Origin: Blattamonas nauphoetae
Taxonomy: Eukaryota > Preaxostyla > Oxymonadida
Reading direction: 5' to 3'
Assembly: GCA_033064195.1 (NCBI GenBank)
Contig: JARBJD010000240.1
Span: forward strand, 1 to 64,000
DNA: 64,000 bases
In this document: positions 693-32,678 of the stretch, piece by piece
Position numbering within the stretch: position 1 is the first letter of the stretch
Layout of the letters: the number at the start of each line of letters is the position of its first letter
Position numbers and translations under genes: made by a program
Notes under the pieces: generated by a model
The model's database searches: none
What the model was told of the DNA's origin: nothing
The model's input: the letters and a program-made list of their open reading frames with translations, nothing else

Positions 693-1043
693 TTACAAAC
701 CTTTGAATTGTATTTTAGAATTTGACGATTGAGGTATGTCATCCTTGGAATAGCGTGGATTGCGTGGAGGTTCATAATCTCTCACCCTGTGAGGGTTCGA
801 AGCCTCTGGCGAGACAATCATCTGAGGTTGTTGTGGTGCTCGATTGATTGCTTTGTTTTGCTGGTACACATCCATCATTCCGCCTAAGCCACTGAGTATT
901 CCTCCAGCTGTTTGTCCAAACTTGTTGTTTGTCTGTGAGAGAAGTCCACCACCAACCTGAAGCAGTGATGGAGCTAGAGGTTTGATGAATTGAAAGAACT
1001 GTTTGCCAATATTTTTGAGTTTGTTGAAACTTCCTGGTGCCAT
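693..1043 (-). CDS. Small Gly-rich MAPGSF protein (116 aa) with in-frame insert
   Basis: This is a conserved small Maverick protein with a glycine-rich hydrophobic middle (GGGLLSQ, GGILSGLGGMMD) and a polar tail ending SSNSKIQFKGL. Compared with copy B it carries a 12-residue in-frame insertion, VSPEASNPHRVR, between the conserved MI and DYEPP. That insertion is the 36-bp palindromic mini-element at about 780-816. It shares its N-terminal MAPG motif with the next gene, suggesting related virion proteins. The function is unknown; a minor capsid or membrane role is inference from composition and position. Confidence 0.75.
   Translation of the reverse strand: MAPGSFNKLKNIGKQFFQFIKPLAPSLLQVGGGLLSQTNNKFGQTAGGILSGLGGMMDVYQQNKAINRAPQQPQMIVSPEASNPHRVRDYEPPRNPRYSKDDIPQSSNSKIQFKGL
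781..815 (+). repeat. Palindromic mini-element, in-frame in a gene
   Basis: It contains GAGGGTTCGAAGCCTC and ends GCGAGAC. The corresponding site in copy B (about 27039) lacks it, and the net difference is exactly 36 bp. It is read from its reverse strand as VSPEASNPHRVR. Confidence 0.85.
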
Positions 1044-1049
1044 TTATGT

Positions 1050-1061
1050 AAAAATAAAAAA
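1050..1061 (-). promoter_or_regulatory. T-rich start-proximal motif
   Basis: An exact TTTTTTATTTTT on the minus strand, followed by ACATAAATG of the 693-1043 gene. It is identical in sequence and spacing class to the motifs before the capsid genes. Confidence 0.55.
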
Positions 1062-1079
1062 TACAATTCATAAATTATT

Positions 1080-1667
1080 CTAACGAGGAATTGCCTTTGT
1101 CAATGAAATTCCATAATTGAGGATGGTGTTGTATGCTTCATTGAAGGCAATGCTCATGTCTTTGCCACCAACAAGGATCTTGAAAATGGTTCTAAACACT
1201 GGGAGTGTTTTCAGACATAGGCACTTGTCAGACAAATCATCCAGTTCAATCACCACATCATTGATTCCAGTGAGTGCCGCAATCAGTGCACATAAATCAC
1301 TTTGGTTTGTGATCAGTTTCTTCGATGGTTCAATGAGATTATTCAGTAGTTTCTTTTCACAAGCGAAAGCATTCTTGTAAACTAGCAATAGTTGATCTTT
1401 GAATGCTGAAATGTTAGACGTGTATTCTCGCAGTGGTATTGAGCGACTTTGGATTGGAGCGGATGGATAAATCTCAAGTGGTGGTGGATCATACGTACCT
1501 GGAACATTCTCAAGTTCAACGTTTGCCCCTTGTTCATTGCGATCTTCTAACTTTGACCTTCCCGAAGTTGATCCTGTATTGTCGATGATGACATTGTTGG
1601 TGATTGACGTTGGAATGGAAGAAGAACTGGTGTGTTTCGTAAATTGACAACTTAGAATTGGTTGCAT
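1080..1667 (-). CDS. Conserved Maverick protein, unknown function (195 aa)
   Basis: The ATG at 1667 gives MQPILSCQFTKHTSS, the same start as copy B (26167). The N-terminal third is polar and poorly conserved. The C-terminal two thirds (from SIPLREYTSNISAFKDQL onward) are nearly identical between copies and look helical. The gene ends IPR-TAG, whereas copy B ends IPR-TAA at the same residue, which shows TAG acting as a stop here. Copy B carries a 39-bp palindromic insert in the variable part that this copy lacks. I do not recognise a family. Confidence 0.8.
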   Translation of the reverse strand: MQPILSCQFTKHTSSSSIPTSITNNVIIDNTGSTSGRSKLEDRNEQGANVELENVPGTYDPPPLEIYPSAPIQSRSIPLREYTSNISAFKDQLLLVYKNAFACEKKLLNNLIEPSKKLITNQSDLCALIAALTGINDVVIELDDLSDKCLCLKTLPVFRTIFKILVGGKDMSIAFNEAYNTILNYGISLTKAIPR

Positions 1668-1702
1668 CACTTTCTATAAAAAAATTGATATTTATGTTTT
1701 CG

Positions 1703-2655
1703 TTAACCACTTTCTCCCATTTCTTTCTCCAAATAAGCGAATCGAGCATATTCCGGCATATATCCTGTTTGGTATTGACTCACATCTCTTGTTCGATATG
1801 CTTCAGATGTCAGTTGATTCAAAAGTGTTGAGATGTTTGCTGAAGAACGACCAAGGAAAGTCTGCAAATCTTCTGTTTTTGTGATGATTTCGAGAAACTG
1901 TGGATGAATTTGTTCCTTAAACGCTTTTCTTGCTTTCGTTCTCTGATGATCTGGATTTGAACTGATGAAACCTTCAACATAGTCTTCAAGCCACTGATCC
2001 CACATCTTTGATGCAATCTTGGATTGAATGGAATTGAAAACCATATTGTCCAACACATTTTTGCTGAGATCTGCTGGTTGATCTCGACTTGCACGATACA
2101 CCTTCAAAGTATCATTCATGAATTCACCAACAGCTTTCTTCATTGTTGCATAAGGTTGTTGTGATCGTTGTGCTTGCATTTCTTGGTTGTTGACTTCACG
2201 ATAGTTTCCTGGTAAATCGTATGTTCCAGTTTTGAGGAAGTTGTTGTGTGCAGCTTTGATTCTTCTTCCATGATCTTGACGAAATGATGAGTATGGAGTT
2301 TGTCTTCGCATATCTGGTGTTGGATTCATTGAATAGTATGTCTCGACTACAGGTCGACTGTTGTATGATGCAAGCATGAAACCATTCGCTGCAACCAGAT
2401 CTCCATTGTCTCTGTCGTATACCATCACATCAGGAACTTTTCCATGTTTCTCCATTTCCACTCTCCAGTTTGTCCAGTCCTTTCAATGTATTCTAACGCT
2501 GATGGAACACTACTGAGTGCAGAATTGAATTTGGTGCGAATGTCATCATCAGCATAGATTCTTTTCATTGCATCCAAAGGACCCTGATCATATCTCATTT
2601 TTGGTTTCTTCGCTGGTGCTTTTCTCTTTGCGGGAATGTATTGTATCTTCGACAT
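1703..2655 (-). pseudogene. Conserved Maverick protein (about 317 aa), frameshifted
   Basis: The ATG at 2655 starts MSKIQYIPAKRKAPAKKP, and the open frame breaks near 2465-2480. From 2461 the rest continues in another frame (MEMEKHGKVPDVMVYD). Copy B (25164-26126) reads straight through here, so copy A has lost one base in the ERTGQ region. The protein has a basic N-terminus, then a long soluble helical body with the conserved stretch KNVLDNMVFNSIQSKIASKM. The function is unknown. It lies directly opposite the ATPase gene, sharing a short divergent control region. Confidence 0.75.
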
Positions 2656-2714
2656 GGTGTTTTCATACAAAATAAAAAAGCCAAAAGTATATTTTAATTT
2701 GAGAGAAATCATAC
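2656..2714. promoter_or_regulatory. Divergent start region between 2655 gene and ATPase
   Basis: This 59-bp AT-rich gap separates two divergent start codons. It holds CTTTTTTATTTTG on the minus strand just before the 2655 start, and TATATTTTAATTTG on the plus strand before the ATPase start at 2715. The arrangement is kept in copy B (25105-25163). Confidence 0.45.
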
Positions 2715-3597
2715 ATGAAAAGATCTTCAACAACAAAACCTTTGGTTTCGCGGAGGGTGGAACCCTCTTCTCTTACAGCATACGTGAATGCAAAACTGAG
2801 TGAAGCATCTAGTAGGAATGTTTCTCATGAAGTGCAATCACAGATTCATCCAGACTTGAATTTCAATCGCAAAAGTGTTAATGTCCTCGTTGGAAACAGA
2901 GGAAGTGGAAAGACGTTCAATGCTCTTCGAGAGGTTGCCAAGCTCCAAAATGTTCAAGTCAGAAACGAACTATTCCATTTGTTTGTCTTCGTCACTGATA
3001 AGAACATTGATCCAACCTTCGATAAGTTCAAACCAATACTGAATGTTCCATTTGTGAAAGTCAAATATGAAGATGCTCTACCATTTCTGTTGGAACTCTC
3101 CGAATCAAAAGCTGCTTATGAAGAGATCATAGACAACCAGTGGCAAGATAGAATTACTGATGAGTGTCGAGAGGATCTCTTTGACTCACTTAACATTGAT
3201 AACTTCTCAGTGAAGAATCTCCAAACGATTATCCTCCTTGATGACTGTCGTAGAATCCTGGGTGAACGAAGAACATCCAAAAATAGAATGACAATGATGG
3301 ACGTATTACTGGAAAATCGACAAATGAAAATTCACTTTCTTTCTGACAATGCATGAGCTCTTCAGTTTGTCAGCAGATATGAAGTCAAACATCGATTCGA
3401 TGTGGATCTTTGGAGGATTCAACAAAGAACGAATCAGTCGAGTCTATCCTCAGTTGAACGCACCAATTGATATTCGACAATTCTGGAATGTCTACCAAAG
3501 GAAACAGAAATGTGAAGCAGTCATTCTTCGATACAATACAGATGGAGTATCACTGACAGAGATCAACAAAGAAGGACAAAACCGAACTGTCCGTTAA
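2715..3597 (+). pseudogene. Packaging ATPase (FtsK/HerA-like), frameshifted
   Basis: This P-loop ATPase would pump Maverick DNA into capsids. Walker A is VLVGNRGSGKT near residue 60 and Walker B is IILLDDC near residue 172. The frame shifts near 3327-3332, where an extra A relative to copy B moves reading from IHFLSDNA into the frame starting MHELFSLSADMKSN at 3349. Both halves are otherwise well conserved. It runs opposite to all other genes of the element and its 3' end overlaps the 3' end of the coiled-coil gene. Copy B has a different lesion (early TAA), so neither copy is intact. Confidence 0.85.
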
Positions 3598-3936
3598 TTC
3601 TTGAATAAGGTTCCCAATCGTCTCGTCAAGACTTCGAAGCCTCATGCTGAGAGTATCTGTCAACGTTCGAATTGATTCTTCAATGTCTGAAAGTCTTTGA
3701 TCAATCGAAAGTGAGTTGGAGTCACCGATGTTCTCATTGCTTGCTTTCCTCAGTGCTATCTCACCTCTTATTTTTGTGATTCTGTATCCATCAATTCTGA
3801 TCAGCCGATTAAGTTTCTGTGTTGTGAATTTATTCAGTTCTTCTCTGTTCTTTTCCAAATGTCTCTGAAAGTCATAGATGTTTTCAAAACATTTCTGTTC
3901 AGGATCAAACGGTTCTAAAATTTTCAGTGATGACAT
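3550..3936 (-). CDS. Coiled-coil Maverick protein (128 aa)
   Basis: The ATG at 3936 (MSSLKILEPFDPEQK) matches copy B (23929, MTSLKIIEPFDPEQK). Upstream in-frame codons are not conserved. The middle is basic and rich in Asn/Arg, and the C-terminal half (IDQRLSDIEESIRTLTDTLSMRLRS region) has heptad-like spacing typical of a coiled coil. The function is unknown. The 3' end overlaps the converging ATPase gene by about 50 bp, in both elements. Confidence 0.75.
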   Translation of the reverse strand: MSSLKILEPFDPEQKCFENIYDFQRHLEKNREELNKFTTQKLNRLIRIDGYRITKIRGEIALRKASNENIGDSNSLSIDQRLSDIEESIRTLTDTLSMRLRSLDETIGNLIQELTDSSVLSFFVDLCQ

Positions 3937-3971
3937 TTCAATGGAATACAAATATTCAAAACAGTTTTGAA

Positions 3972-5909
3972 CTAAACCAAATTGAACTCATTCATGAACT
4001 CAGGAGTTAAATTGTCAATTGAGTTTGCATGGAACTTTGTGTGTTGGATTGGAACATACACTATTTTTGGTAGACATGTGAGTCCATTCAGTAGTTTAGC
4101 TACAACATTTCCGTGTTTGTACTCAATGAACTGTCCAACAAATTGAAACTGTCTTCGCTTCTTCTGAAACTTGGCAACAGTCTTGTTCAAATCAAGGTGA
4201 ATCAACAGGATGTTTCCTGGTTTATATCGCCAAAGCAGTTGTGATGTCTGCTGTCTTTGGATGTTCTTCAATTGCTCTTCGCAACTGGAGATGTACAGTG
4301 CTTCAATTTCACGATTGTTTTGTGCTTGTTGTGGAGTGAATTTGTTCCAGTACGCTCGATGTGGAGTCACGTTGTAATAGTTCACCATCTGATTCATCAA
4401 TGACTGATTTGCCATCTGTGTCGCATTGTCTTGGAATCCATCTCTGATTGTTCTGATCACTCGATCGACAATTCTGTTGTGATTAGTGAATGGTGAACTT
4501 GTGAAATATGTGCTGACCTTTTGCTTTCGAAAGAACTTTTCTGCTACTCCACTTGTCCATGCTGCTTCTCCATCACCTCGAATGTTGTTGACAAGAACTC
4601 CACGATGATTAATCAGATCATTGATTGCAGTCTTGACTTTGCTCCATGATTTATCCAGAACTGGAATCACAACAAGGTATTTGGTGTTGATGTTGATGGC
4701 AAAGAGGTAAATCTGAAGAACTGTTTTCGAAGTTGGTGATTGGATGAAAACAAGATCAATTTCCCATGATCCAAACTTGGGAGAGAAGTAAGGTCTGTCA
4801 CACTTCTGAGGAACCTTTTTGTCTGCTGTCTTTTCTGAATCTCCAGTGATGTCTTTGGACATAAATTGCATCTTTGATCGAAATGGATACTGGATTTTCT
4901 CTGTTGTTCTCTGAATTGTTGGTTGATCAATCATCAATGTGTTACCTCCTTGTTCCCTCCTGATTTTCCGAGGATGTGTAGAATCCCATCGGTGAACATA
5001 TTCATCATACCATTCCTGAAATGATCTTCCACCAAATGGGCTTTGTTTGGGATGTGCTAAAATGAACTCAGTTTCGTCATTTCCGAGAGTTCTGCTTACG
5101 TGTGAAAGAATGAACATGTTTCGATTCAGTTTCTTTGATTCAACGATCTGTTTGTCAATGAATTCTTCCATTTTCTGTTGATTGTCCATCATTGAATTCT
5201 CTGCTTTGATTTGTTCCTCCTCTGAATTGTCCTTCTGTTGATGGTCAAAATAGCCTTTCACTCGTTCCAACATTCCCAGCACTTGCCTTGTCGTTGGTTC
5301 GACCTTGTTGATCTCTCTCACATATGGCACAAAACCTTTGTCAATCTTCACAATTGTTTGTGGATCTGGTGGCTTGGGGATCAGTAGATCATCATCTTCA
5401 AACCTCATCTCTTTCATTGGGAATTCATATTCTGAACCAATTGATGTCGGGTTTCTCTTCTGTCCAGGAATGATTGGAGATTCAGGTGTTTCAATAGGTA
5501 ATGGTTGTGATTTTTGACTCGGAGATAGTGTTGGAATTACGATGGCTGGTGGTTGATTAAAATGAATATTCTGTGCTTCCTGAGAATACTGTTGATATGC
5601 TCTGTACGCTTGTCTTGCAGTATTGTTACTAAGGATCCATCCGGTGAATTGTTTCACAAATCTTTGAACAACTATTTTTCCATCAGCAATGTTTAAATCA
5701 GGAGGTAATTCTCCATTCAGCCAATCATTGTAGTATGTCTCATCATTTGCGTCGTATTGTCCATTTGAATCATTGACATGATAGGTTGGTAAAAGCTGGG
5801 AAAACGTAAGTGTGACTGTGAATATTTTTGTCTTGGAATGGAACGTGTTGTCCAGGAGGTTCTTCACTATTCGATCAATTTGTGTTGAATTCAAAAACGG
5901 TCTAGTCAT
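3972..5909 (-). CDS. Retroviral-type integrase (rve), intact 645 aa
   Basis: This is the integrase that inserts Maverick DNA. It has a long N-terminal region (1-330) with a polar variable linker, then the RNase-H-fold core. The first catalytic Asp is in WEIDLVF near residue 383 and the second in IRGDGEAAW near 444. At the expected Glu position the sequence reads IVDRVIRTIRD near 481, so an Asp seems to replace Glu. A C-terminal beta-rich domain (KPGNILLIHLDLNKT) follows. Copy B is the same protein broken by a frameshift. A TTTATTTTTGTAG block precedes the ATG. Confidence 0.9.
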   Translation of the reverse strand: MTRPFLNSTQIDRIVKNLLDNTFHSKTKIFTVTLTFSQLLPTYHVNDSNGQYDANDETYYNDWLNGELPPDLNIADGKIVVQRFVKQFTGWILSNNTARQAYRAYQQYSQEAQNIHFNQPPAIVIPTLSPSQKSQPLPIETPESPIIPGQKRNPTSIGSEYEFPMKEMRFEDDDLLIPKPPDPQTIVKIDKGFVPYVREINKVEPTTRQVLGMLERVKGYFDHQQKDNSEEEQIKAENSMMDNQQKMEEFIDKQIVESKKLNRNMFILSHVSRTLGNDETEFILAHPKQSPFGGRSFQEWYDEYVHRWDSTHPRKIRREQGGNTLMIDQPTIQRTTEKIQYPFRSKMQFMSKDITGDSEKTADKKVPQKCDRPYFSPKFGSWEIDLVFIQSPTSKTVLQIYLFAININTKYLVVIPVLDKSWSKVKTAINDLINHRGVLVNNIRGDGEAAWTSGVAEKFFRKQKVSTYFTSSPFTNHNRIVDRVIRTIRDGFQDNATQMANQSLMNQMVNYYNVTPHRAYWNKFTPQQAQNNREIEALYISSCEEQLKNIQRQQTSQLLWRYKPGNILLIHLDLNKTVAKFQKKRRQFQFVGQFIEYKHGNVVAKLLNGLTCLPKIVYVPIQHTKFHANSIDNLTPEFMNEFNLV

Positions 5910-5932
5910 TTCTACAAAAATAAAGTTTGTGT

Positions 5933-8867
5933 TTATTCAAATATAGAATCAGTTGCTTTCAGTCCATGAATGAATGGAGGACATGATTCATTCTCAAGAA
6001 CGATTGCCTTCAGATGTATTCCACTGAGACTGAGTTTCTGCTGTTGAATTTTCGCAATCTCAAATCCGTTGCTGTCATCGTCAGTGTGAGCTCTTCTCGT
6101 TTGAAAGTTCAAGGTTGTCGTCACTGTTTTCTCTCCATTGAGGCACTTCACATAGTCGTTGCTTGTTATTGTTGTTTTCTTCAATGACACTCCTTTGATC
6201 TTGCATTTCTCATCTAGTGAGTAGCACTTGGGTGCAAGACAGATCATCTGCTCACCTTCCTTTTCAATTGCTAATCCCAACAGTTTCTTCTCATCATCAA
6301 CTCCTTTTTCAGGATTTGGAAACCATTCATATTTGTGGGTATCATAGAATTCTTTGTCAGCAATCACGTGTTCAAATTGTTGATGGATTCCAGCAGTCGG
6401 ATCTCCACTAATTGCCCAATATGCAGAGTCAGTATCTCCCTCACAGAAGTGAATCTTGTTCATGTCTAGACATTTGTACATGAAGTTGTAGATGAAATTC
6501 AGATACCAGAACTTGGCATTGTCGAGTGTGAACAGTGCTTCTTGGAGACATGTTTTGCATGATGCTTTCTCTCTGTCTTCAATCACAATGTAGTTGTCCT
6601 CATTGATCTCTCTTGTCGCTACAAATCCTTTCATCATTTGTTTCAAGTATGTTCTCTTCTCATTGCAGATTGTGATTGAGTTGAACTTCTCGGTGTTCAT
6701 TCCATCGTATCCGTAACTTCCATTCAAGTTGGTCTTACAGAATTGTTCCTTTCCTTTGTTTCCAACCTTCATTGCTTCTATTCTGTCATTCATGAATGAG
6801 GTCACGAATGGTTCGAATCCAGCATGTCTCGAGAATACCATCACAGTCTTTACGTCATCAATAATGAAGTGACAATAGTCGATGAGGAACCACAGATAGT
6901 ATGTCGAAAAGAACATATACTGATCGTGTGTGCTCAAGAGTTGGGTCAGCTTCCGTTGTTTGTCATCAGTCTTCAATCCATGTTTCTTCATCAACGAATA
7001 GGTCTTCTCTCCAATGTTCTCTTCTGTTGTATTGACCACGATGTTTCTGAAGATTGGTGGGAAGTTAATGAAATCGTTTATGTACTTTTCATCGATGTGT
7101 CCCTTCAATTCAGCAACAAAAAGTGACTTCTGGTTCTTGTCCTCTATGATCTCACGACATTCTATATCTCCTGTTGCGGTGAACAAACATCTTCCTGGCA
7201 TGTACATTCTGTGATTCGTGTATGGATTGTTCTTGTTCTTGATTGATGAGAAAGCACTTGGATACAGTGAATTTAAAGTCAACACCACAGACGTGAGTCA
7301 TGATGTGTTTAGTATCGGTTGATTTGACAACACCATCTTCAAATGAGAAGTGGTTGATTGGAGTCATGTCTTTGATGTTCTGTCGATGTTGAACATTCGA
7401 TAGTCCACCAGTAACTGCTGCTCTCAGTTTGTGATAGGTCTGCTCGTGTGTCAGAGTCATTGGAAGTGATTTCCAGATGCAGTTTTTCTTTAATTGAATT
7501 CTCAATCTTGTGAGATGTTCATCATGGTCTGACTTGTAGGTGTTGCAGTAGTCACAGCAGATCTTCACATTCTCTTTAGAATGTCCTTTTGCATTGTCGA
7601 GTCTATCCAATGTTGGTTTGATTGCTTGTGTGAAGTGACATTTGCAGATATAGCACACTCTCCTGCACTGTTGAACAAACCAGTCGTAGTCTGCTTCAGT
7701 GACATTGTTGGTTGTATTGCGATGGGCTTTCTGGTCTTGATACCTGTATCCTTCAACTTTGTATTTCCAGTATTGTTTGGTGATCTTGATTGGTCCAGAA
7801 TCGTCACATTCGTTGTAGTCGGCATCAATATCAAAGTCATTGTAGGCACATGCATACTTGATTGCTGAAGCATTTGCGGACAGTGAGAGGTTGTGCAACA
7901 TGTCCACTTTGTATTGGAAGTTCAAATCAATCAGATTATCCAATGGTGCAATCGTACATTCAACGTCTCTGATGTTGTAGAACTTGAGGTAATCCCATCT
8001 GTTTTTGAATCCTTGCTTGTTCCAATCATCAAGGTAAAGTTGGTAATCAGTATCGGACATTTCACTATTGTTCAGACTGGAGTAGAATTCATATTTGGAG
8101 AAAGGTTCTTGTTTGCTTAGTACTGTATCGTAGTCTGATGAGTCAAATGATTCGTAAGCAAAGAATGATTTCTGAAGTGTTGTGTTTCCTCAAAAAGCCT
8201 TCACTGCATTATCCAATGTCATTGGTCCTGTGTACGACATCATGTCAATAAAGCGAAGAACCTGTTGTGTTTTCTCATGTCTGATCAATACTTGTTTGTA
8301 CTTTGTTGTTGATCCAAGAAAGCTCACCACTTTCCAATCCTTGTCAACGAGATCACGAAAGATGAGATTGATGTCGAATCTGGAGCTGTTGAATCCAATC
8401 ACACTGACTTCATTCTGAGAGGGAATTTCCGGGTCTTCGTAGTAGTTGTCCTCTCGAACTGTCTCAGCATATTTGAAGAGTTCTCTGATCCATTGCTTCA
8501 CAAAGTCTTTTCCATTTCGAAAATCAAAGTAGATTGACTTCAAACCTGATTTTGTTTTGATTGCTGATGCAACAGAGAGAGGCTTCAAATGTGAGATCAA
8601 CTGAGTATTGTCATCAGAAAATAGACTGTCAAGAATGAGATCTTCCATTGTTTCGAAATCGTAAGTGATGTAGTATTGTGTTGGTTTGAATTCGTCTTGT
8701 CTTTTGTGTGCCATCAGAAATTCATGAGTCTTGTTGTTGAGGATGTGTGGAACATATGGTCTTGGTGTTTTGTCAAGGGAGGTTTTCTTCACATGTTTTC
8801 CATCAACTTCTTTACACTCTTTGAGATGTTTCTCGTAGTATGTCTTGAAGAGAGAATCCTTCACTTG
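5933..8867 (-). pseudogene. Protein-primed DNA polymerase B, truncated and broken
   Basis: This is a copy of the polymerase at 18409-21921 that lacks about the first 180 residues. It starts abruptly at the hAT boundary (8867). Two inactivating lesions are visible: a GGA-to-TGA nonsense codon at 8190-8192, between exonuclease and middle regions, and a one-base insertion near 7272 exactly at polymerase motif A, where copy B reads VDFNSLYPS. Exonuclease motifs YDFETMED and GFNSSRFDINLI, the zinc/HNH-like block (TLDRLDNAKGHSKENV), motif B (KTNLNGSYGYDG) and motif C (EGDTDSAYW) all persist. Identity to copy B is very high, so decay is recent. Confidence 0.9.
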
Positions 8868-18045: not shown

Positions 18046-18179
18046 TTGCGTAAGCAACAAAATTATGGGTAGATCTCGCGATCCTCACAAATATGAACGG
18101 GATCGAGGAAGTGAGTCAAATATCGAATGAAAGAATGTCTGAAGAGTTGTGTGGTGGATACTTGCAAAAAACAAAAAAA

Positions 18180-18408: not shown

Positions 18409-21400
18409 ATGTTCATTGCCTTCCATTCCATTCTGGTTGCAGTGTACAGATTCCCAGTTGCTGGGAAAGCGAATGCAATTCTCTCTGAACACATAAAAAC
18501 ATACAACGTTCGGTACGTCGATTCTGAGTACAACATCTGCTTCTTTCAAGCACTATCATTCCTCACTCTTCCTGAGGTTCCGAAGAAGAAAATCTCAATC
18601 AATATGAGGAACAGTGAAGCCTACAGATTGTTCGCACAATGGATGAATCTTTCACAACTCAAATCTCGACAATTGACACCACATCTTCAGAAGTATCCTG
18701 GATTTGATATTGCTTGTGATATTGAGAAAGCAATGATTGAATTCAACATCACAGTTCACATTTATGAATACGACGAAGACAAGAAGCGGTACTTCCTCAG
18801 TCAATCGTACATCAACGAAAATGATGATGCAAGAGTTCTTCCACTTCTGATGATTCCACTGACGGCAACTCTCGTTCATGTAATGTACATTATCGATCCT
18901 GAGAAATTAACTGGATACAAGCTCTGTCCTTATTGTCAATCGAGAGGATTCCAAGTGAAGGATTCACAATTCAAACGTAATTATGAGAAGCACCTTACTG
19001 AGTGTAAGGAACTTGATGGAAAACATATGAAGAAGATATCACTTGATCGTACACCAAGACCGTACGTACCACATATTCTTAACAACAAAACAAATGAATT
19101 TCTGATGGCACACAAGAGACAAAATGAATTCAAACCAACACAATACTACATCACTTACGATTTCGAAACAATGGAAGATCTCATTCTTGACAATCTATTT
19201 TCTGATGACAATACTCAGTTGATCTCACATTTGAAGCCTCTCTCTGTTGCATCAGCAATCAAAACAAAATCAGGTTTGAAGTCAATCTACTTTGATTTTC
19301 GAAATGGAAAAGACTTTGTGAAGCAATGGATCAGAGAACTCTTCAAATATGCTGAGACAGTTCGAGATGATAATATGTATGATGATCCAGAAATTCCATC
19401 TCAGAATGAGGTCAGTGTTATCGGATTCAACAGCTCCAGATTTGACATCAATCTCATCTTTCGTGATCTCGTTGACAAGGATTGGAAAGTGGTGAGCTTT
19501 CTTGGATCAACAACAAAGTACAAACAAGTATTGATCAGACATGAGAAAACACAACAGGTGCTTCGCTTTATTGACATGATGTCGTACACAGGACCAATGA
19601 CTTTGGATAATGCAGTGAAGGCTTTTGGAGGAAATACAACACTTCAGAAATCTTTCTTTGCTTACGAATCATTTGATTCATCAGACTACGATACAGTGCT
19701 GAGCAAACAAGAACCATTCTCCAAATATGAATTCTATTCGAGTCTGAACAACAGTGAAATGTCCGATACTGACTACCAAATGTATCTTGACGATTGGAAG
19801 AAGCAAGGATTCAAAAACAGATGGGATTACCTCAAGTTCTACAACATCAGAGACGTTGAATGTATGATTGCACCATTGGATAATCTGATTGATCTGAACT
19901 TCCAATACAAAGTGGACATGTTGCACAACCTCTCACTGTCAGCCAATGCTTCAGCAATCAAGTATGCCTGTGCCTACAATGACTTTGATATTGATGCTGA
20001 CTACAACGAATGTGACGATTCTGGACCAATCAAGATCACCAAACAATACTGGAAGTACAAAGTTGAAGGATACAGGTATCAAGACCAGAAAGCCCATCGC
20101 AATACAACCAACAATGTCACTGAAGCAGACTACGACTGGTTTGTTCAACAGTGCAAGAGAGTGTGCTATATATGCAATAGTCACTTCTCACAAGCTGTAC
20201 GACCTACATTGGATCGAATCGACAATTCAAAAGGGCAATCAAAAGAGAACGTGAAGATCTGTTGTGATTGCTGCAACACCTACAAGTCAGACCATGATGA
20301 ACATCTCACAAGATTGAGAATTCAACTGAAGAAGTATTGCATCTGGAAATCACTACCAATGACACTGACACATGAGCAGACCTATCACAAACTGAGAGCA
20401 GCAGTGACAGGTGGATTATCGAATGTTCAACATCGACAGAATATCAAAGACGTGAATCCAATCAATCACTTCCAATTCCAAGACAACAAAGTCATTTCCA
20501 CTGATACTGAACACAACATGACTCATGTATCTGGCGTTGATTTCAATTCACTTTATCCAAGTGCTTTCTCATCAATCAAGAACAAGAACAATCCATACAC
20601 TACTCACAGAATGTACATGCCAGGAAGATGTCTGTACACAGCAACTGGAGATAAAGAATGTCGTGAGATCATCGAAGACAAGAATCAGAAGACACTGTTT
20701 GTTGCAGAACTGAAAGGACACATCGATGAAAAGTACATAAATGATTTCATGAACTTCCCACCAATCTTCAGAAACATTGTGGTCAATACGATTGAAGAGA
20801 ATATTGGAGAGAAGACCTATTCGTTGATGAAGAAAGATGGATTGAAGACTGATGACAAACAAAGAAAACTCACTCAACTCTTGAGCACACACGATCAGTA
20901 TATGTTCTTTTCGACATACTATCTGTGGTTCCTCATCGACTATTGTCACTTCATTATTGAGGACGTAAAGACTGTGATGGTATTCTCGAGACATGCTGGA
21001 TTCGAACCATTCGTGACCTCATTCATGAATGACAGAATAGAAGCAATGAAGGTTGGAAACAAAGGAAAGGAACAATTCTGTAAGACCAACTTGAATGGAA
21101 GTTACGGATACGATGGAATGAACACTGAGAAGTACAACTCAATCACAATCTGCAATGAGAAGAGAACATACTTGAAGCAAATGATGAAGGGATTTGTGGC
21201 ATCAAGAGAGATCAATGAGGACAACTACATTGTGATTGAAGACAGAGAGAAAGCATCATGCAAAACATGTCTCCAAGAAGCACTGTTCACACTCGACAAT
21301 GCCAAGTTCTGGTATCTGAATTTCATCTACAACTTCATGTACAAATGTCTAGACATGAACAAGATTCACTTCTGTGAGGGAGATACTGACTCTGCATATT

Positions 21401-21921
21401 GGGCAATTAGTGGAGATCCGACTGCTGGAATCCATCAACAATTTGAACACGTGATTGCTGACAAAGAATTCTATGATACCCACAAATATGAATGGTTTCC
21501 CAATCCTGAAAAGGGAGTTGATGATGAGAAGAAGTTGTTGGGATTAGCAATTGAAAAGGAAGGTGAACAGATGATCTGTCTTGCACCAAAGTGGTACTCT
21601 CTCGATGAGAAATGCAAGATCAAAGGAGTGTCTCTGAAGAAGACAACCATCACGAGTGATGACTATGTGAAGTGCCTCAATGGAGAAACAACAGTGACGA
21701 CAACATTGAACTTTCAAACGAGAAGAATCGTGAGTCTCGCAGAGGCTTCGAACCCTTACAAGGGCAAGAGCGATGAGGACACTAATGGATTTGAGATCGC
21801 CAAAATACAACAGCAGAAACTCAGTCTCAGTGGAATTCATCTAAAGGCAATCGTACTTGAAAATGAATCATGTCCTCCATTCATTCATGGACTGAAAGCA
21901 GTGGATTACAAATTCGAATAA
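18409..21921 (+). CDS. Protein-primed family B DNA polymerase with HNH-like insert (1170 aa)
   Basis: This polymerase replicates the linear element using a protein primer. Residues about 25-165 form an N-terminal domain with NICFFQALSFL and a late conserved His (LVHVMYI), reminiscent of OTU-type cysteine proteases. A CPYC...HLTEC zinc finger (about 173-200) follows. Exonuclease motifs are YDFETMED (about 250), GFNSSRFDINLI (337) and YNIRD (477). A zinc-binding His-Me/HNH-like domain sits at about 560-635 (CYIC, LDRIDNSKGQSKENV, CCDCCNTYK). Polymerase motif A is VDFNSLYPS (709), B is KTNLNGSYGYDG (891) and C is EGDTDSAYW (989). A mini-element adds 12 residues near 1110. The frame is fully open. 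Confidence 0.93.
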   Translation: MFIAFHSILVAVYRFPVAGKANAILSEHIKTYNVRYVDSEYNICFFQALSFLTLPEVPKKKISINMRNSEAYRLFAQWMNLSQLKSRQLTPHLQKYPGFDIACDIEKAMIEFNITVHIYEYDEDKKRYFLSQSYINENDDARVLPLLMIPLTATLVHVMYIIDPEKLTGYKLCPYCQSRGFQVKDSQFKRNYEKHLTECKELDGKHMKKISLDRTPRPYVPHILNNKTNEFLMAHKRQNEFKPTQYYITYDFETMEDLILDNLFSDDNTQLISHLKPLSVASAIKTKSGLKSIYFDFRNGKDFVKQWIRELFKYAETVRDDNMYDDPEIPSQNEVSVIGFNSSRFDINLIFRDLVDKDWKVVSFLGSTTKYKQVLIRHEKTQQVLRFIDMMSYTGPMTLDNAVKAFGGNTTLQKSFFAYESFDSSDYDTVLSKQEPFSKYEFYSSLNNSEMSDTDYQMYLDDWKKQGFKNRWDYLKFYNIRDVECMIAPLDNLIDLNFQYKVDMLHNLSLSANASAIKYACAYNDFDIDADYNECDDSGPIKITKQYWKYKVEGYRYQDQKAHRNTTNNVTEADYDWFVQQCKRVCYICNSHFSQAVRPTLDRIDNSKGQSKENVKICCDCCNTYKSDHDEHLTRLRIQLKKYCIWKSLPMTLTHEQTYHKLRAAVTGGLSNVQHRQNIKDVNPINHFQFQDNKVISTDTEHNMTHVSGVDFNSLYPSAFSSIKNKNNPYTTHRMYMPGRCLYTATGDKECREIIEDKNQKTLFVAELKGHIDEKYINDFMNFPPIFRNIVVNTIEENIGEKTYSLMKKDGLKTDDKQRKLTQLLSTHDQYMFFSTYYLWFLIDYCHFIIEDVKTVMVFSRHAGFEPFVTSFMNDRIEAMKVGNKGKEQFCKTNLNGSYGYDGMNTEKYNSITICNEKRTYLKQMMKGFVASREINEDNYIVIEDREKASCKTCLQEALFTLDNAKFWYLNFIYNFMYKCLDMNKIHFCEGDTDSAYWAISGDPTAGIHQQFEHVIADKEFYDTHKYEWFPNPEKGVDDEKKLLGLAIEKEGEQMICLAPKWYSLDEKCKIKGVSLKKTTITSDDYVKCLNGETTVTTTLNFQTRRIVSLAEASNPYKGKSDEDTNGFEIAKIQQQKLSLSGIHLKAIVLENESCPPFIHGLKAVDYKFE
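21734..21770 (-). repeat. Palindromic mini-element in the polymerase gene
   Basis: It is inserted between the conserved QTRR and SNGFE/TNGFE parts; copy A lacks it. The net difference is 36 bp, read in frame as SLAEASNPYKGK. The core on its own strand is AGGGTTCGAAGCCTC. Confidence 0.85.
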
Positions 21922-22323: not shown

Positions 22324-22364
22324 ACTCGACCCCTGTCGGGTTCGAAACCATGCAAATGCAAGAC
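22324..22364 (+). repeat. Diverged palindromic mini-element in integrase
   Basis: It aligns over its full 41-bp length (counting both flanking AC) with the copies at 22415 and 26255 and retains GTCGGGTTCGAAACC. The second hairpin is eroded. Confidence 0.65.
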
Positions 22365-22414: not shown

Positions 22415-22455
22415 ACTCGACCCCAGTCGGGATCGAAGCCTCGCAGATGCGAGAC
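22415..22455 (+). repeat. Palindromic mini-element in integrase
   Basis: Flanked by AC on both sides: CTCGACCCCAGTCGGGATCG forms the first hairpin and CTCGCAGATGCGAG the second. It adds LDPSRDRSLADAR in frame. Confidence 0.8.
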
Positions 22456-23928: not shown

Positions 23929-24279
23929 ATGACATCATTGAAAATAATAGAACCTTTTGATCCTGAACAGAAAGAGTTCACAAACATTCATGACTTTCAG
24001 AGATATTTGGAAAAGAATAGAAAGGAATTGAATGAATTGACGACACAAAACCTAAATAGGATGATTCAAATTGATGGATACAGAATAACAAAAATAAGAG
24101 GTGAGATAGCACTGAGGAAAGTCAACAATGAAAGCATAGGTGAATCCTCGATTGATCAGAAATTGTCAGATATCGAAGAATCTATTCGAACACTAACAGA
24201 TAGTCTCAGCATGAGGCTTCGAAGTCTTGAGGAGACCATTCACAATCTCCTCCAAGACTTTTCCGACTCTTCTGATTAA
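23929..24279 (+). CDS. Coiled-coil Maverick protein (116 aa)
   Basis: Homologue of 3550-3936 in copy A. It begins MTSLKIIEPFDPEQKEF and has a basic middle and a coiled-coil C-terminal half (DQKLSDIEESIRTLTDSLS). A TTTTTATTTCAG block precedes the start. Its last 87 bp overlap, tail to tail, the packaging ATPase gene on the other strand. Function unknown. Confidence 0.75.
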   Translation: MTSLKIIEPFDPEQKEFTNIHDFQRYLEKNRKELNELTTQNLNRMIQIDGYRITKIRGEIALRKVNNESIGESSIDQKLSDIEESIRTLTDSLSMRLRSLEETIHNLLQDFSDSSD

Positions 24280-26156: not shown

Positions 26157-26166
26157 ATTGAAAGTG

Positions 26167-26781
26167 ATGCAACCAATTCTAAGTTGTCAATTTACGAAAC
26201 ACACAAGTTCTTCTTCTGTTCCAACATCAATCACCAACAATGTCATCATCGATAACTCGACCCCAGTCGGGTTCGAAGCCTCGCAGAGGCGAGACAAAGG
26301 ATCAACTTCTGGAAGGTCAAGTCTTGAAGATCGAAATGAATCATCAATGAGGGACCATGAACGAGACAAATATGATCCACCACTCGAGGTGTATCCATCA
26401 GCACCGATACAGAGCCGGTCAATACCACTGCGAGAATACACGTCCAATATTTCAGCATTCAAAGATCAACTACTGCTCGTCTACAAGAATGCATTCGCCT
26501 GTGAAAAGAAACTTCTGAATAATCTCATTGAACCATCGAAGAAACTGATCACAAACCAAAGTGATTTATGTGCACTGATTGCGACACTGACAGGAATAAA
26601 CGATGTCGTGATTGAACTTGATGATCTGTCAACAAAATGTTCATGCATTTATTCTCTCCCAATCTTTCGAACCATTTTCAAGATCCTTGTTGGTGGAAAA
26701 GATAGGAGTATCGCCTACAATGAAGCTTACAACACTATTCTCAACTATGGTATTTCATTCACGAAGGCAATCCCGAGATAA
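26167..26781 (+). CDS. Conserved Maverick protein, unknown function (204 aa)
   Basis: Starts MQPILSCQFTKHTSS as in copy A. A 39-bp mini-element inserts 13 residues (STPVGFEASQRRDK replacing one Thr) into the variable N-terminal part. The conserved C-terminal region (YTSNISAFKDQLLLVYKNAF to ISFTKAIPR) looks helical. It ends in TAA where copy A ends in TAG. No family recognised. Confidence 0.8.
   Translation: MQPILSCQFTKHTSSSSVPTSITNNVIIDNSTPVGFEASQRRDKGSTSGRSSLEDRNESSMRDHERDKYDPPLEVYPSAPIQSRSIPLREYTSNISAFKDQLLLVYKNAFACEKKLLNNLIEPSKKLITNQSDLCALIATLTGINDVVIELDDLSTKCSCIYSLPIFRTIFKILVGGKDRSIAYNEAYNTILNYGISFTKAIPR
26255..26295 (+). repeat. Palindromic mini-element with empty counterpart in copy A
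   Basis: Flanked by AC at each end. CTCGACCCCAGTCGGGTTCG and CCTCGCAGAGGCGAG give two adjacent hairpins. Copy A at about 1585 lacks it, and removing 39 bp makes the two loci the same length. Confidence 0.88.
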
Positions 26782-26798
26782 ATTATGAACGAATTAGA

Positions 26799-26810: not shown

Positions 26811-26816
26811 ACTAAA

Positions 26817-27540: not shown

Positions 27541-27585
27541 GGGATCAGATCCGACTGGGATCACTGGGATCAAATCAGAAGCCTG
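27541..27585 (-). mobile_element. Solo hAT-like terminal sequence
   Basis: Read inward on the minus strand it starts CAGGCTTCTGATTTGATCCC and then repeats GATCCCAGT-type words. This matches the left end of the hAT at 8868 (CAGGCTTCTGATCAGGATCC). It abuts the truncated MAPGSF gene at GGAATGAT. No partner end was seen to the left. Confidence 0.6.
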
Positions 27586-27638
27586 GGAATGATGGACTCC
27601 TATCAGCAAAGTAAAGCAATGAATCAGTCACAAAAGCC

Positions 27639-27676
27639 ACTCTCCCCTCAGGAGGGTTCGATGCCTCTGGCGAGAC
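27639..27676 (+). repeat. Palindromic mini-element, tandem unit 1
   Basis: GGAGGGTTCGATGCCTC core, ending GCGAG and flanked by AC. Its right AC is also the left AC of the next unit. Confidence 0.8.
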
Positions 27677-27715
27677 TCGACCCCAGTCGGGGTCGAAGCC
27701 TTGCAGAGGCAAGAA
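27675..27715 (+). repeat. Palindromic mini-element, tandem unit 2
   Basis: The first hairpin, CGACCCCAGTCGGGGTCG, is a perfect 7-bp stem. The second is TTGCAGAGGCAAG. It directly follows unit 1, sharing AC. Confidence 0.8.
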
Positions 27716-27844
27716 AGATGATCGAGTATGAACCACCGCGAAATGGTCGGTACGTGAATGATGACGTACCACAATCATCAAATTCAAAAATTCAATTCAA
27801 AGGTTTATAAATAAATGTAAATCCAGTTTTTTATTTATACAGAA

Positions 27845-28144
27845 ATGGCACCAGGTTGGTTCTCAAAATTAGCAGGAGTCGGTAAAACTATTCTCAGAAT
27901 TGGAGCACCATTTTTGAATCTCATTCACTTCGTTGGCCCAGTGATTTTCAAGATTGCACAGACAGGTGTGGAGATGATTCCGGATGTGAAATCGGATCAG
28001 CAAATCCATGCAGAAAAGTTTGCACAATATGAGCAAGCAATCAATGAAGGAAACACTGCAGTTGCAAACAAACTCAGAGAAGAAATACTGAGATTGGAAG
28101 AAAAGCTGAAACCAAAAGCGAAGAAAAAGTTGAAAAGGAAATAA
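27845..28144 (+). CDS. Small amphipathic virion-type protein (99 aa)
   Basis: Intact homologue of 355-657: MAPGWFSKL, a hydrophobic segment (ILRIGAPFLNLIHFVGPVIF), a charged helix (QYEQAINEGNTAVANKLRE) and a lysine-rich C-terminus. It is conserved between copies despite decay elsewhere. A TTTTTTATTTAT block precedes the ATG. The role is unknown; a membrane-active or DNA-associated virion component is a guess from the amphipathic plus basic layout and its place next to the capsid gene. Confidence 0.75.
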   Translation: MAPGWFSKLAGVGKTILRIGAPFLNLIHFVGPVIFKIAQTGVEMIPDVKSDQQIHAEKFAQYEQAINEGNTAVANKLREEILRLEEKLKPKAKKKLKRK

Positions 28145-28155
28145 GCAAAAAGGAC

Positions 28156-28167
28156 TTTTTTATTTTT
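28156..28167 (+). promoter_or_regulatory. T-rich start-proximal motif of capsid gene B
   Basis: An exact TTTTTTATTTTT, 6 bp before the ATG at 28174 (GTTAAAATG), as before the capsid gene of copy A. Confidence 0.6.
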
Positions 28168-28173
28168 GTTAAA

Positions 28174-30042
28174 ATGAACTCACACATTACTCATCTGACA
28201 AACAAAAGACATGGAGCATCAACATTGACTGGCAATAGCACAGGATCAATAAAGTACACCAGAGATGATATTGGTCAAATCCAACAGCAATTCATGTCAG
28301 AACATCACGTCAATTTCCTTTTGAACGATGGCGCACACAGCACTTCCATCGAAGAGTTGAAAGCATCGGAGAACTCTCGCTTCTACAAAGGACAGAAAAT
28401 AATCATTCCACTCACTGGCAATCAGGATATCTGTCAAATCGATGATTCATTCATTACTTTCACAATGACAGCAACACTGAAAGTCAATAATTGGCAGACA
28501 ACTTCAGGTAAAGTTGGATCGTTCATGAATGAGAGGATATTCATCTTCGTTGGACTCAAGCATTCGGCATCAATCTTTAGTAGGTTCACAGTTCTTCACA
28601 ACAATCAGAGAATCACGAGCATAGCAAACAATGACGTGTCGATGGAATCACATATCTACAACATGATCAAACCAAAGAGTCAATTGGAGAACCGAAAACA
28701 CTCACATACACCTTGGCAAAATGCTTGGACACACGATGAATCTGTCGCTGGTGTCTATATTCCACTTTCGGATTTCACAACAACGTATGGAAGCGGTGTT
28801 TTCAAAGATACCATTGATGTGCCAATTCGTGTGTCAATAAACCTTGAAGATCTTCTCATTGTCTCAGGGATGACTGACTATCCAAGATGTCTCTTTGGTG
28901 ATTTGAAATTGAGTGTGTACATCAATGAAGATGCGTTCGTTTGCTGTCCTGTGAATCCTGAACTCACTTTCAAAAATACTCTATCATCAATTGTAGTTGG
29001 GACTAAAGCAGCACCGCCAATAAAAACATCAATTGCCGATTGCATTAAACATCGTCCATTCTTTCTGAACAATCTTGTCACATCATGCACCAAGAACTTC
29101 GTTCAGATTGGTCAATCATTTCTACAACCAACTGTGACTCAAGACATCTACTTTAATTCCGCTGGCGTTGTGGCTACTGAACCAGAATATGTAGATCAGT
29201 ACATTTCCCTCAACATCACTGATTATCGCGTTGATGATGTATATTGGATGAGTGCAGGATACAAAATGAAAGAAATCGCGAAAGAGAGTCTCAGGAATAT
29301 GTACACAAATCGTCCAGGAACGATCCCAGCAGAGAGAATATCGTTCTATCCATTTCAAAAGACACCGACTACACAAGGAATTGATTGCACACAGCAGATG
29401 GTACTCACTAATGCAAAGGATATTATGTTACTGTTTCGTCACTACGATAATGAAGTCACCTGTTTCCACAATCCAATGCAGAAGGATCTTCGTGTGAATC
29501 TACTCAACAAGTACTATCCGGATAATCCGACAACCACTATTGGAGCTCGCTTCTATCAGTTCGCAATATCGACTCTCAATCTTGATTCGTACCTTGCTGT
29601 TCCTGATGATTTGGAGCGATCACTGACAGATTCTCTTGTTGAAGATAAACTCAGAAATGATATGAATTATCCAAATGAAACCATGACAAGAGTGCGACCA
29701 ATTCATGACAATACTGACTTCCTTTTGTGCTTCTCAACTCAACGAAGTGGATGTCCAACAAACTGTAATGATTCCATCAGTTCCAAAGGTCAGAATGTTC
29801 CTGTCACGTTGAGATCACAACCAATATATCAAGGCAATCTCGACACATACTACAATGTGTACAATCCAAGTCAAAGTGGTGGTGATATGACAACATTTAC
29901 TCATCCTCCAGCACCGATTCTAGCAACAACTGCAACCACGTGGTGGGTCTTACGATTCAGCAATGACGTTCCTATTGTTGAGTATTATCCAAATCACACG
30001 TTGAAAGCTTTACACAAAGATTTAGGGATTATCCCAAATTGA
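28174..30042 (+). CDS. Candidate major capsid protein (double jelly-roll), 622 aa
   Basis: This is the largest structural-type gene in the element, of the usual size for Maverick hexon-like capsid proteins. The N-terminal half shows the pattern of a jelly-roll: IIIPLTGNQDICQIDDSF, then FIFVGLKHSASIFSRFTVLH, HTPWQNAWTHDESVAGVYIP and LFGDLKLSVYINEDAFVCCP. A second beta-rich half starts around residue 300. The next gene (30083) repeats this pattern, supporting a duplicated capsid. The start is backed by the T-rich motif and by the matching copy A start. The family call is by pattern and gene order; structure prediction would decide. Confidence 0.72.
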   Translation: MNSHITHLTNKRHGASTLTGNSTGSIKYTRDDIGQIQQQFMSEHHVNFLLNDGAHSTSIEELKASENSRFYKGQKIIIPLTGNQDICQIDDSFITFTMTATLKVNNWQTTSGKVGSFMNERIFIFVGLKHSASIFSRFTVLHNNQRITSIANNDVSMESHIYNMIKPKSQLENRKHSHTPWQNAWTHDESVAGVYIPLSDFTTTYGSGVFKDTIDVPIRVSINLEDLLIVSGMTDYPRCLFGDLKLSVYINEDAFVCCPVNPELTFKNTLSSIVVGTKAAPPIKTSIADCIKHRPFFLNNLVTSCTKNFVQIGQSFLQPTVTQDIYFNSAGVVATEPEYVDQYISLNITDYRVDDVYWMSAGYKMKEIAKESLRNMYTNRPGTIPAERISFYPFQKTPTTQGIDCTQQMVLTNAKDIMLLFRHYDNEVTCFHNPMQKDLRVNLLNKYYPDNPTTTIGARFYQFAISTLNLDSYLAVPDDLERSLTDSLVEDKLRNDMNYPNETMTRVRPIHDNTDFLLCFSTQRSGCPTNCNDSISSKGQNVPVTLRSQPIYQGNLDTYYNVYNPSQSGGDMTTFTHPPAPILATTATTWWVLRFSNDVPIVEYYPNHTLKALHKDLGIIPN

Positions 30043-30064
30043 AAAGTCTTGCCAACGAATTGTA

Positions 30065-30076
30065 TTTTTTATTTTT
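30065..30076 (+). promoter_or_regulatory. T-rich start-proximal motif
   Basis: An exact TTTTTTATTTTT, 6 bp before the ATG at 30083 (CTATAAATG). Confidence 0.55.
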
Positions 30077-30082
30077 CTATAA

Positions 30083-31789: not shown

Positions 31790-31818
31790 ATCGTAGATTT
31801 TATTTTTGTTTAAAAGCA

Positions 31819-32229
31819 ATGGTCAAACGTTATTTCTCAATTCAAAATTCTCACACTGCTCAACTCCCTCCTGATTTTACCAATTCTCGAAATCAAAAAT
31901 GCATCCACTTTCTTGACTGTAAACTCATCCATGTGAAGGAAGAAAGTGATGATGTATCAACGATTTTCTCCAAAGATATTCCTCAGAACTTCACCATTCA
32001 TGGTGATTGGATTCAAACAGATGCATGGAATGATTCATATGTTGCTTTCTGTAATGAACAGATTGCGAAGCGAAAGAAATGGGAATGAACTACTCGACAA
32101 TCAATTGTGAAGATCTGGTTCAAAGACAGTTCAGGTGAATCAGTTGAAATGAATACTTCAGAAACTATCAATGGAAAAATAATCAAAGAGTATTGTGAAT
32201 TTCTAGTTGATCTATTGCTGGAGTACTAA
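31819..32229 (+). pseudogene. Last Maverick gene, 137 codons with one in-frame TGA
   Basis: It starts MVKRYFSIQNSHTAQLPPDF after a TTTTATTTTTG block. TGA occurs at 32086-32088 after AKRKKWE, and the same frame continues with QSIVKIWFKDSSGES to LVDLLLEY-TAA. The alternating hydrophobic pattern suggests a small beta-rich protein, possibly a virion component, but no family is recognised. It is the last gene before the element boundary. Confidence 0.6.
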
Positions 32230-32356
32230 TGAAAAAATCATAAATGAATTGTGAAGTGTTGTTCCAGCTTTCATCTTGATTCTTTCATCTTTGCTGTGAC
32301 TTCTTTCAGCTTCTTCATTCATTCAATTTTTCAAGTTTGTTTGATTGTACCGTAGG

Positions 32357-32395
32357 ACTCTCACCCTGTGAGGGCTCGAAGTCTCTAACTGAGAC
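32357..32395 (+). repeat. Palindromic mini-element in repeat R
   Basis: Flanked by AC on both sides (39 bp including both). The 11431 copy of the repeat has a single AC and no insert. The core is GAGGGCTCGAAGTCTC. Confidence 0.85.
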
Positions 32396-32640
32396 AACCC
32401 GATACTCCTTTGGGGATCATTCTATCGTGATCCTACTCTATGACTACTGCTGGCGAATTCCTTGAAGGATTAAGGTCTTGGGTGGGCATGATTTACGGTC
32501 ACATTTAAGTGAAGCCCACATGAACCCCGGGGACAATCTTTCGATCATCCGTCTCCAATCCAACCTTCAATTCGTTCCACGCAGTAGTCACGAGGGCACC
32601 ATTTTGCCTGAGTATCTTGGATATTACGTCGAGGTATCAT

Positions 32641-32678
32641 ACTCTCACCCTGTGAGGGTTCGAAGCCTCTGGCGAGAC
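32641..32678 (+). repeat. Palindromic mini-element in repeat R, clean empty site at 38411
   Basis: Copy 3 of the repeat reads TTTCATACTTCAAC, while here the AC is duplicated around a 36-bp insert. The insert sequence is identical to the one at 781-815. Confidence 0.9.

Follow-up and report, generated by a model that had tools for sequence, protein, structure and literature searches.

A mobile double-hairpin element of 31-41 bp in the Maverick/Polinton-like DNA of the oxymonad Blattamonas nauphoetae

Mitochondria harbour mobile palindromic elements a few dozen bases long, and longer ones occur in bacteria. According to passages of the literature dealing with them, the mitochondrial double-hairpin elements (DHE) of Allomyces and Schizosaccharomyces are small, G+C-rich, composed of two adjacent hairpins and potentially mobile, those of fission yeast being located in intergenic regions or rRNA genes (PMC10085805), and the GC42 cluster of yeast mitochondria is a palindrome of 42 bp flanked by AG or ACT repeats, for which empty sites are known and which merges into compounds (PMC4478555). 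Rickettsia palindromic elements (RPE) are described in the relevant passages as lying in frame in conserved protein genes as well as in intergenic DNA (PMC2229807). Here, we analyse a family of short palindromic inserts in a stretch of 64,000 bases from the oxymonad Blattamonas nauphoetae (contig C158, bases 1-64000; hereafter the window) and in loci fetched from the rest of its genome. We show these inserts being copies of a double-hairpin element, whose identity, mobility and insertion rule we regard as nearly certain and which is found mostly in the Maverick DNA of its host, often inside protein genes. By structure, its nearest described counterparts are the mitochondrial DHE and GC clusters, by its behaviour in genes it is nearest to the RPE.

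As in the DHE, the unit consists of two adjacent, compensated hairpins, related copies occur at unrelated sites and empty sites are found; unlike the mitochondrial DHE, the Blattamonas element resides in a nuclear virus-like transposon, with at least 610 copies spread over many assembly contigs, mostly in or beside Maverick DNA. With the GC clusters it shares a palindromic unit of a few dozen bases, short flanking repeats, empty sites and compounds, whereas these clusters are mitochondrial, mostly intergenic and show a putative target duplication, a 2-bp duplication being rejected for the Blattamonas element. The resemblance to the RPE, already drawn in an earlier reading of the window made from the sequence alone (the sequence-only reading), is supported with regard to in-frame insertion into protein genes; the RPE differ in being bacterial, 105-146 bp long and folded into a long stem-loop, in contrast to a eukaryotic unit of 31-41 bp having two hairpins and its own end rule. 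In its general features, a further likeness is to the Submariner miniature inverted-repeat transposable elements (MITEs), mobile inverted repeats carried by a eukaryotic DNA virus and partly located within genes, which differ in being ordinary transposon-derived MITEs. The Submariner MITEs of Pandoravirus are mentioned in a passage of PMC5799277. Volvox carteri likewise has short palindromic repeats in its nuclear DNA, but the passages on them regard these nuclear copies as inert and as having come from organelles (PMC2670323), whereas the nuclear copies of Blattamonas themselves multiply. Since B. nauphoetae is reported in part of its genome paper to be without mitochondria, these having been lost altogether (PMC10703272), an organelle source of the element is unlikely. 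The strings Maverick, transpos, viral and virus are absent from the main text of this genome paper (PMC10703272), and a survey of integrated protist viruses mentions Streblomastix and contains no occurrence of palindrom or Blattamonas (PMC10120064). Among open-licence papers we found no report of this element family, and none of the passages on related elements describes a mobile element as short as this that proliferates in nuclear or virus-like genomes.

The family was analysed on the window and 80 fetched genomic loci (labelled L0xx). From these, 40 representative copies were hand-picked for parsing and 39 were kept; the copy L020:3094 failed the parser, is absent from the statistics on hairpin pairing, target bases and the main insertion rule and was added afterwards by a separate check. 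The unit is composed of a T, hairpin I (9-14 nt), the sequence GGTTCGAAGC, hairpin II (9-15 nt) and a terminal AC, the length being 36 nt in 23 of the parsed copies, 39 nt in eight and 31-41 nt in the other eight. The central TCGA is its most constant piece, the letters preceding it being variable. Both adjacent hairpins are conserved by compensatory change, for which the evidence is strong for hairpin I and moderate for hairpin II, the hairpin limits having been set by a script favouring pairing and the copies being mutually related. Hairpin I varies freely in sequence (second pair mostly TA, GC or AT; fourth pair CG, AT or TA), and 96 of 106 cells are paired across 25 distinct hairpins, compared to a mean of 71.4 and a maximum of 81 in shuffles, none of 2000 being as good. 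Hairpin II is more uniform, with 89 of 94 cells paired and 30 of 2000 shuffles as good, which is the weaker result. Within the 13/10 length class (12 sequences), five of eight pairs show two-sided changes, and none of 500 shuffles and no slid control reaches the covariation score; the count of additional pair types, one of five measures, is unremarkable (89/500 shuffles). The suggestion of the sequence-only reading that the core fits a Pol III B box and may derive from a tRNA T-arm found no support, as the T's of GTTC vary among otherwise intact double hairpins (GGATCGA, AGCTCGA, AGATCGA, GGGTCGA), no tRNA was found in the window and neither of the two weak Rfam matches in bases 1-33000 lies on an element. 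We therefore reject a tRNA-derived element, a remote origin of this kind being conceivable.

The nine copies already recognised in the window are all present, shifted by at most 2 bp, and five filled/empty pairs are visible as described (781/27039, 21734/6085, 26255/1585, 32357/11431, 32641/38411), their net differences of 36, 36, 39, 37 and 36 bp matching the parsed unit lengths. Two copies lie antisense in genes, i.e. the 36-bp element at 780..815 (+) within a 116-aa Maverick open reading frame (ORF) of the minus strand, for which seven empties read TC at the junction, and the 36-bp element at 21734..21769 (-) within the 1170-aa ORF of the Maverick DNA polymerase B (PolB), which is empty in L026 (88% over 120 nt) and missing from the aligned PolB homologues. 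Five copies, all on the plus strand, lie in sense: two 39-bp elements in a 377-aa ORF, at 22326..22364, where hairpin II is partly decayed, and at 22417..22455, both with no empty copy found in the window and the fetched loci; a 39-bp element at 26257..26295 in a 216-aa ORF, having 13 empty relatives; and a tandem in a 92-aa ORF, in which a 36-bp element (27641..27676) is placed directly 5' of a 39-bp element (27677..27715) with a terminal AA replacing AC. All seven gene-borne copies have lengths divisible by three and are stop-free in the frame used, as had been claimed. The 37-bp element at 32359..32395 (+) is noncoding, with AC in four of four empty relatives, and the 36-bp element at 32643..32678 (+), empty in L045 (95.7%), is judged to lie outside genes though a 126-aa open frame contains it; its 36-mer is identical to that at 780..815. 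The pattern GGTTCGAAGCC, with at most one mismatch, has ten matches in the window compared to 0.77 expected from shuffles, and eight of the ten are elements. The ninth copy of the window, 32357, has a more diverged core; it is recovered (E 8.7e-12), as is 21734 (E 2.4e-10), by a covariance model trained on 12 other elements.

Extending the search to the host assembly (88,311,006 bp, 837 contigs), as had been proposed, revealed a genome-wide family. The exact core occurs 428 times compared to 13 occurrences of a reversed control, and two right-half patterns match 161 and 449 places, their reversed versions none; since the two patterns are mutually exclusive and cannot match one copy, there are at least 610 copies. 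We examined 91 exact-core places in L008-L088 (L001-L007 were omitted, six duplicating later loci and L004 being uncounted), comprising 75 elements and 16 non-elements lacking element structure, the split by regular expression having missed 17 elements that were reassigned by eye from the letters (L082 being a half element only). In this census, limited to the part of the genome from which sequence was readable, Maverick-similar flanks were found for 63 of the 75 elements, nine lie beside Maverick DNA and three show neither, whereas none of the 16 non-element cores has Maverick flanks. The second-round flank database contained the queried loci, and the count was repeated without self-matches: of the nine elements beside Maverick DNA, eight still have flanks in common with further Maverick-bearing loci, and the ninth, L045:3001, is 744 bp away from Maverick-similar DNA. 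Two covariance models gave no match at E 0.01 in 11 long non-Maverick loci (L010, L012, L016-L019, L023, L027-L029, L039). In viral contigs, two exact element patterns had no match and a PolB query found no related contig, on which basis spread into other viruses is rejected, and so is a prokaryotic source, an 18-base pattern occurring in six contigs compared to 7.5 expected by chance. As separate observations, L022 contains a 1.2-kb inverted repeat (1932-3142 / 3712-4922; 99.75% identical) outside recognised Maverick DNA with one element per arm, contig C390 carries two inverted arrays (about 207921-208051 and 227613-227743), each holding four elements spaced 36 bp apart, and further covariance-model matches are found at L035:631-663 (-; 25.4 bits) and L044:6948-6980 (+; 17.6 bits).

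To trace empty sites, the joined 60-base flanks of each filled site were compared to the window and L009-L088, no gap being allowed at 12 or fewer columns from the junction. Four rows were dropped as sites already represented (L013:3011, L047:3001, L075:301, L074:301), leaving 35 parsed events after merging and, with L020:3094, 36 events judged distinct. Relatives show empty junctions without a nearby gap at up to 98% identity over 120 nt; under the filters used, at least one empty copy exists for 21 of the 30 parsed non-tandem events and none for nine. Among 50 PolB homologues found, 18 were aligned, including two of Streblomastix, and none of these 18 has element-like residues at the PolB inserts 21734, L011:1959 and L011:3001, homologue P0075 not covering the 21734 site and the loop of L011:1959 being occupied by different, unrelated residues in P0062 and P0077. 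The empty sites of relatives and the aligned homologues lacking the three inserts show the insertions to be the derived state. Identical 36-mers are embedded in unrelated flanks (window 780-815 and 32643-32678; L020 and L069). At one site a nested series runs from a single element (L071) to two (L020) and three (L064), L071 and L020 being 100% identical over 84 joined bases; L020:3094 is an extra upstream, clean 36-bp insertion missing in L071 and L064. At the window tandem (27641-27715), L075, L021 and L035 carry the second unit only. Elements are observed in both orientations and stack in tandem at their own AC ends; one half element was seen (L082), partial or over-long insertions not having been searched for systematically. 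As a side observation on PolB, the metagenomic proteins P0062 and P0063 (75% identical) differ by an 11-residue insert in the L011:1959 loop and several Streblomastix PolBs differ by inserts of 9-19 residues, these short inserts possibly being other micro-elements.

The junctions allow deriving an insertion rule. All 35 parsed events have a C immediately 5' of the unit, a result partly favoured by the parsing (L032:4634 has an ambiguous left end, for which the parser preferred CT ahead of the hairpin), and thus 35 of 36 events overall. The base preceding this C in the 30 non-tandem events is A in 20, T in seven, G in two and C in one, A being enriched over a background of 28.8% (p 2e-5). At the right end, 32 of 35 units terminate in AC, two in AT and one in AA, i.e. 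the right A is present in 35/35 events compared to a left A in 20/30 non-tandem events. We confirm AC flanking both sides at 32357, 32641, 26255 and 22415, from which the sequence-only reading had suggested testing for a 2-bp duplication of the target. This duplication did not stand up: at five sites in which the empty copies read TC or GC the filled copy retains the same bases on the left and has AC on the right, namely 794 (7/7 empties), 21754 (3/5), L015:3001 (2/2), L032:3001 (2/2) and L076:311, where the pattern rests on one weak (69%) empty match. Since TC/GC target sites still end in AC, the right AC is carried by the element and no 2-bp duplication takes place. The rule is insertion directly 3' of a C, mostly the C of an AC, without any target duplication beyond the ambiguous C/AC; a 1-bp duplication of the C cannot be told apart from none in these junctions.

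Copies inside genes almost always preserve the reading frame. With coding status assigned from open frames and relatives rather than from annotation, and with five sites, at which the filled copy falls within open frames of 126-153 aa, classed as noncoding for want of a supporting gene, lengths of 3n are found in 21/21 genic units compared to 6/14 outside (35 events; Fisher p 1.3e-4), or 7/15 outside when L020:3094 is included (p 2e-4), so that the excess of such lengths in coding DNA, proposed as a check beforehand, is observed. A plain rule, counting a unit as coding when it falls within an open frame of 90 aa or more, gives 25/26 compared to 2/9 (35 events; p 4e-5). The length rule is challenged by L043:7260, a 38-bp unit that brings in a stop and was classed as noncoding, its own frame being short, although the junction lies in open frames of 306 aa (L032) and 93 aa (L068) in relatives; recounted as coding, the numbers are 21/22 and 7/14 (p 0.003). 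Fifteen of the 21 coding insertions are in sense to the gene. All three sense and two antisense frames, five of the six possible, are used (24 rows, same sites unmerged), suggesting no single peptide being favoured, and units have on average 4.74 of six frames open compared to 4.02 for base-shuffled units. Frame preservation is on these grounds best read as selection after insertion, aided by the common unit lengths of 36 and 39. The proposal of the sequence-only reading, a very small mobile element entering Maverick genes in frame, is thereby supported.

How the element moves is a matter of graded likelihood. We consider the chances to be even that it is a non-autonomous mobile double-hairpin element living in a Maverick/Polinton-like family of the oxymonad nuclear genome and moved via a single-stranded stage, and we tentatively prefer a single-strand, enzyme-driven step over template switching by a polymerase. 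IS200/IS605, REPIN and Helitron-type elements transpose as single strands, have subterminal hairpins, leave no target duplication and insert 3' of a short tag. The hairpins adjacent to the ends, insertion 3' of a tag which equals the element's own end, the absence of a duplication, stacking at this tag and the near-confinement to one replicating carrier are features predicted by a mechanism of this kind. Protein-primed strand displacement by the Maverick PolB would expose single strands. In the model we propose, the element would move at this single-stranded stage of Maverick DNA with both hairpins folding, a hairpin-recognising nick-and-join activity acting in trans would cut after AC, the piece would be joined to a different Maverick strand on the 3' side of a C by IS200/IS605 or REPIN-type logic, and frame-breaking copies would then be removed by selection. 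The Blattamonas element differs from IS200/IS605, REPIN and Helitron elements in consisting of only two hairpins and in having no known autonomous partner, and a Y1 transposase was not found in the genome. A candidate nuclease or mobiliser is an HNH-like zinc finger in the carrier's PolB, the gene of which itself carries inserts. This gene (18409..21921, +; 1170-aa ORF) contains the exonuclease motif DFETME, motif A (DFNSLYPS), motif B (LNGSYGYD) and motif C (GDTDS), and the finger is located between exonuclease and palm at ORF residues ~586-623 (C-x2-C ... PTLDRIDN..G..N...CC..CN..K); it is conserved in aligned metagenomic relatives, the matches to HNH profiles being weak.

Several observations weigh against this reading or against the insertion rule on which it builds. 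The search of the genome for a Y1 transposase (PF01797) was negative, very diverged HUH enzymes being able to escape it; Y1 transposase is rejected as mobiliser on this ground, the mobiliser is so far only a candidate, and microhomology copying by a polymerase would leave identical junctions. L020:3094, a clean insertion of 36 bp, entered after G and is the sole event without a preceding C. Some AC-filled sites have divergent empties: 11/13 read AT at 26257 and 8/15 TC at L047:3453, 10/23 at L054 and 7/13 at L048 read AT rather than AC, only 4/9 read AC at L049, and at 32657 (element 32643-32678) two empties read TC and TT, the empty at 38411 reading AC. Three of the 75 elements (L022 twice, L076) lie away from recognised Maverick DNA. 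The folding energy of single sequences is only modestly beyond that of shuffles, with z from -0.64 to -3.25 in eight folds.

Among the alternatives, the likeliest dispenses with a transposase: as Maverick DNA replicates, a nascent strand ending in (A)C would switch to an element as template, copy through the terminal AC and return to the AC of its original template, the hairpins acting as signals for pausing and jumping. The C that precedes 35 of the 36 inserts, in most cases following an A, the AC at the points of jumping in and out, tandem stacking at AC, the near-confinement to DNA that would co-replicate and the failure to find a Y1 transposase all agree with such copying, whereas the near-uniform unit ends (right AC in 32/35) would be unusual for an error-driven process and L020:3094 was inserted after G; we rate template switching as unlikely. 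Spread through RNA, by reverse transcription or reverse splicing of a small structured RNA into DNA, appears quite improbable: both hairpins may fold as RNA, with modest z-scores, and RNA-mediated transposition is considered for the yeast mitochondrial GC clusters in a passage of PMC4478555, but compensated pairs do not separate RNA from DNA, no Rfam family lies on any element of window 1-33000, the right ends have no tail and the B-box letters vary. Conventional cut-and-paste or copy-paste transposition that duplicates a 2-bp AC target would explain why many inserts have AC on either side and the empty site has a single AC; the five sites having TC or GC on the left and AC on the right, and the right A being invariant compared to the left A, make it highly improbable. 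Very short introns are barely credible, for although the antisense unit reads GTCTCG...GAGAG, i.e. GT...AG, 15/21 coding copies are in sense without GT...AG, and excising ~37 nt from GT to AG of an antisense copy would break the frame which the 36-nt unit keeps. That the copies are old shared duplicates or assembly artefacts without mobility is negligible: long flanking homology, named by the sequence-only reading as a refuting observation, is indeed seen for many copies, which share flanks through Maverick multiplication and are older Maverick duplicates, yet 36 events judged distinct, identical 36-mers in unrelated flanks and homologues without inserts are found.

Two established classes are rejected as well. 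Helitrons have 5'-TC and 3'-CTRR ends and insert between A and T; a non-autonomous Helitron is excluded as the units end in GAGAC/AAGAC and enter after C, though a Helitron Rep is present in the genome. MITE or cut-and-paste elements are excluded by the lack of a fixed target duplication and by the two ends being different hairpins rather than inverted copies.

By its sequence, the carrier is a Maverick/Polinton-like element. DNA_pol_B_2 is matched in five of 29 aligned PolB relatives. An integrase-like ORF at 3972..5909 (-) has a weak rve match, and the proteins nearest to it come from the oxymonad Streblomastix strix, its named best hits being Streblomastix proteins, some of them called integrase-domain. 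The carrier belongs to a large family: a 622-aa ORF at 28174-30042 has one distant homologue, and out of 1770 first-look candidates 71 copies of this gene were scored at 85-100% identity, most with open frames. In the first Maverick copy, the PolB gene is split into two overlapping frames (5933-8060, -). A look-alike segment at 3620..3654 (-) in a Maverick gene is conserved among copies; together with a second one at 24203-24239 (16.9 and 14.2 bits) it encodes the conserved protein end SLSMRLRSLDETI, and a 35-base pattern for it matches 214 places in the genome. The segment is either an ancient fixed or domesticated insert or a chance resemblance. The window further contains a MULE transposase ORF (16162-18060, -) flanked by two Maverick copies of opposite orientation, tandem repeats of 92-bp period that overlap open frames (37083-37791) and a 3349-aa ORF (40461-50510, -) with three repeat copies at 1830-bp spacing.

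With several hundred nuclear copies, near-identical empty sites for many of them, in-frame and out-of-frame contexts and nested arrays, the insertion rule of a palindromic element of this size becomes directly measurable. The near-confinement to a virus-like transposon suggests looking for the mobiliser in the replication of the carrier. More tentatively still than the enzyme-driven step itself, the element may represent a nuclear, organelle-independent two-hairpin single-strand transposon of 31-41 bp, a parasite of a virus-like transposon mobilised by the replication machinery of its carrier. Within genes, its insertion adds 12-13 residues to the polymerase, the integrase and further proteins, providing a natural experiment in which short peptides are inserted into open polymerase and integrase genes.

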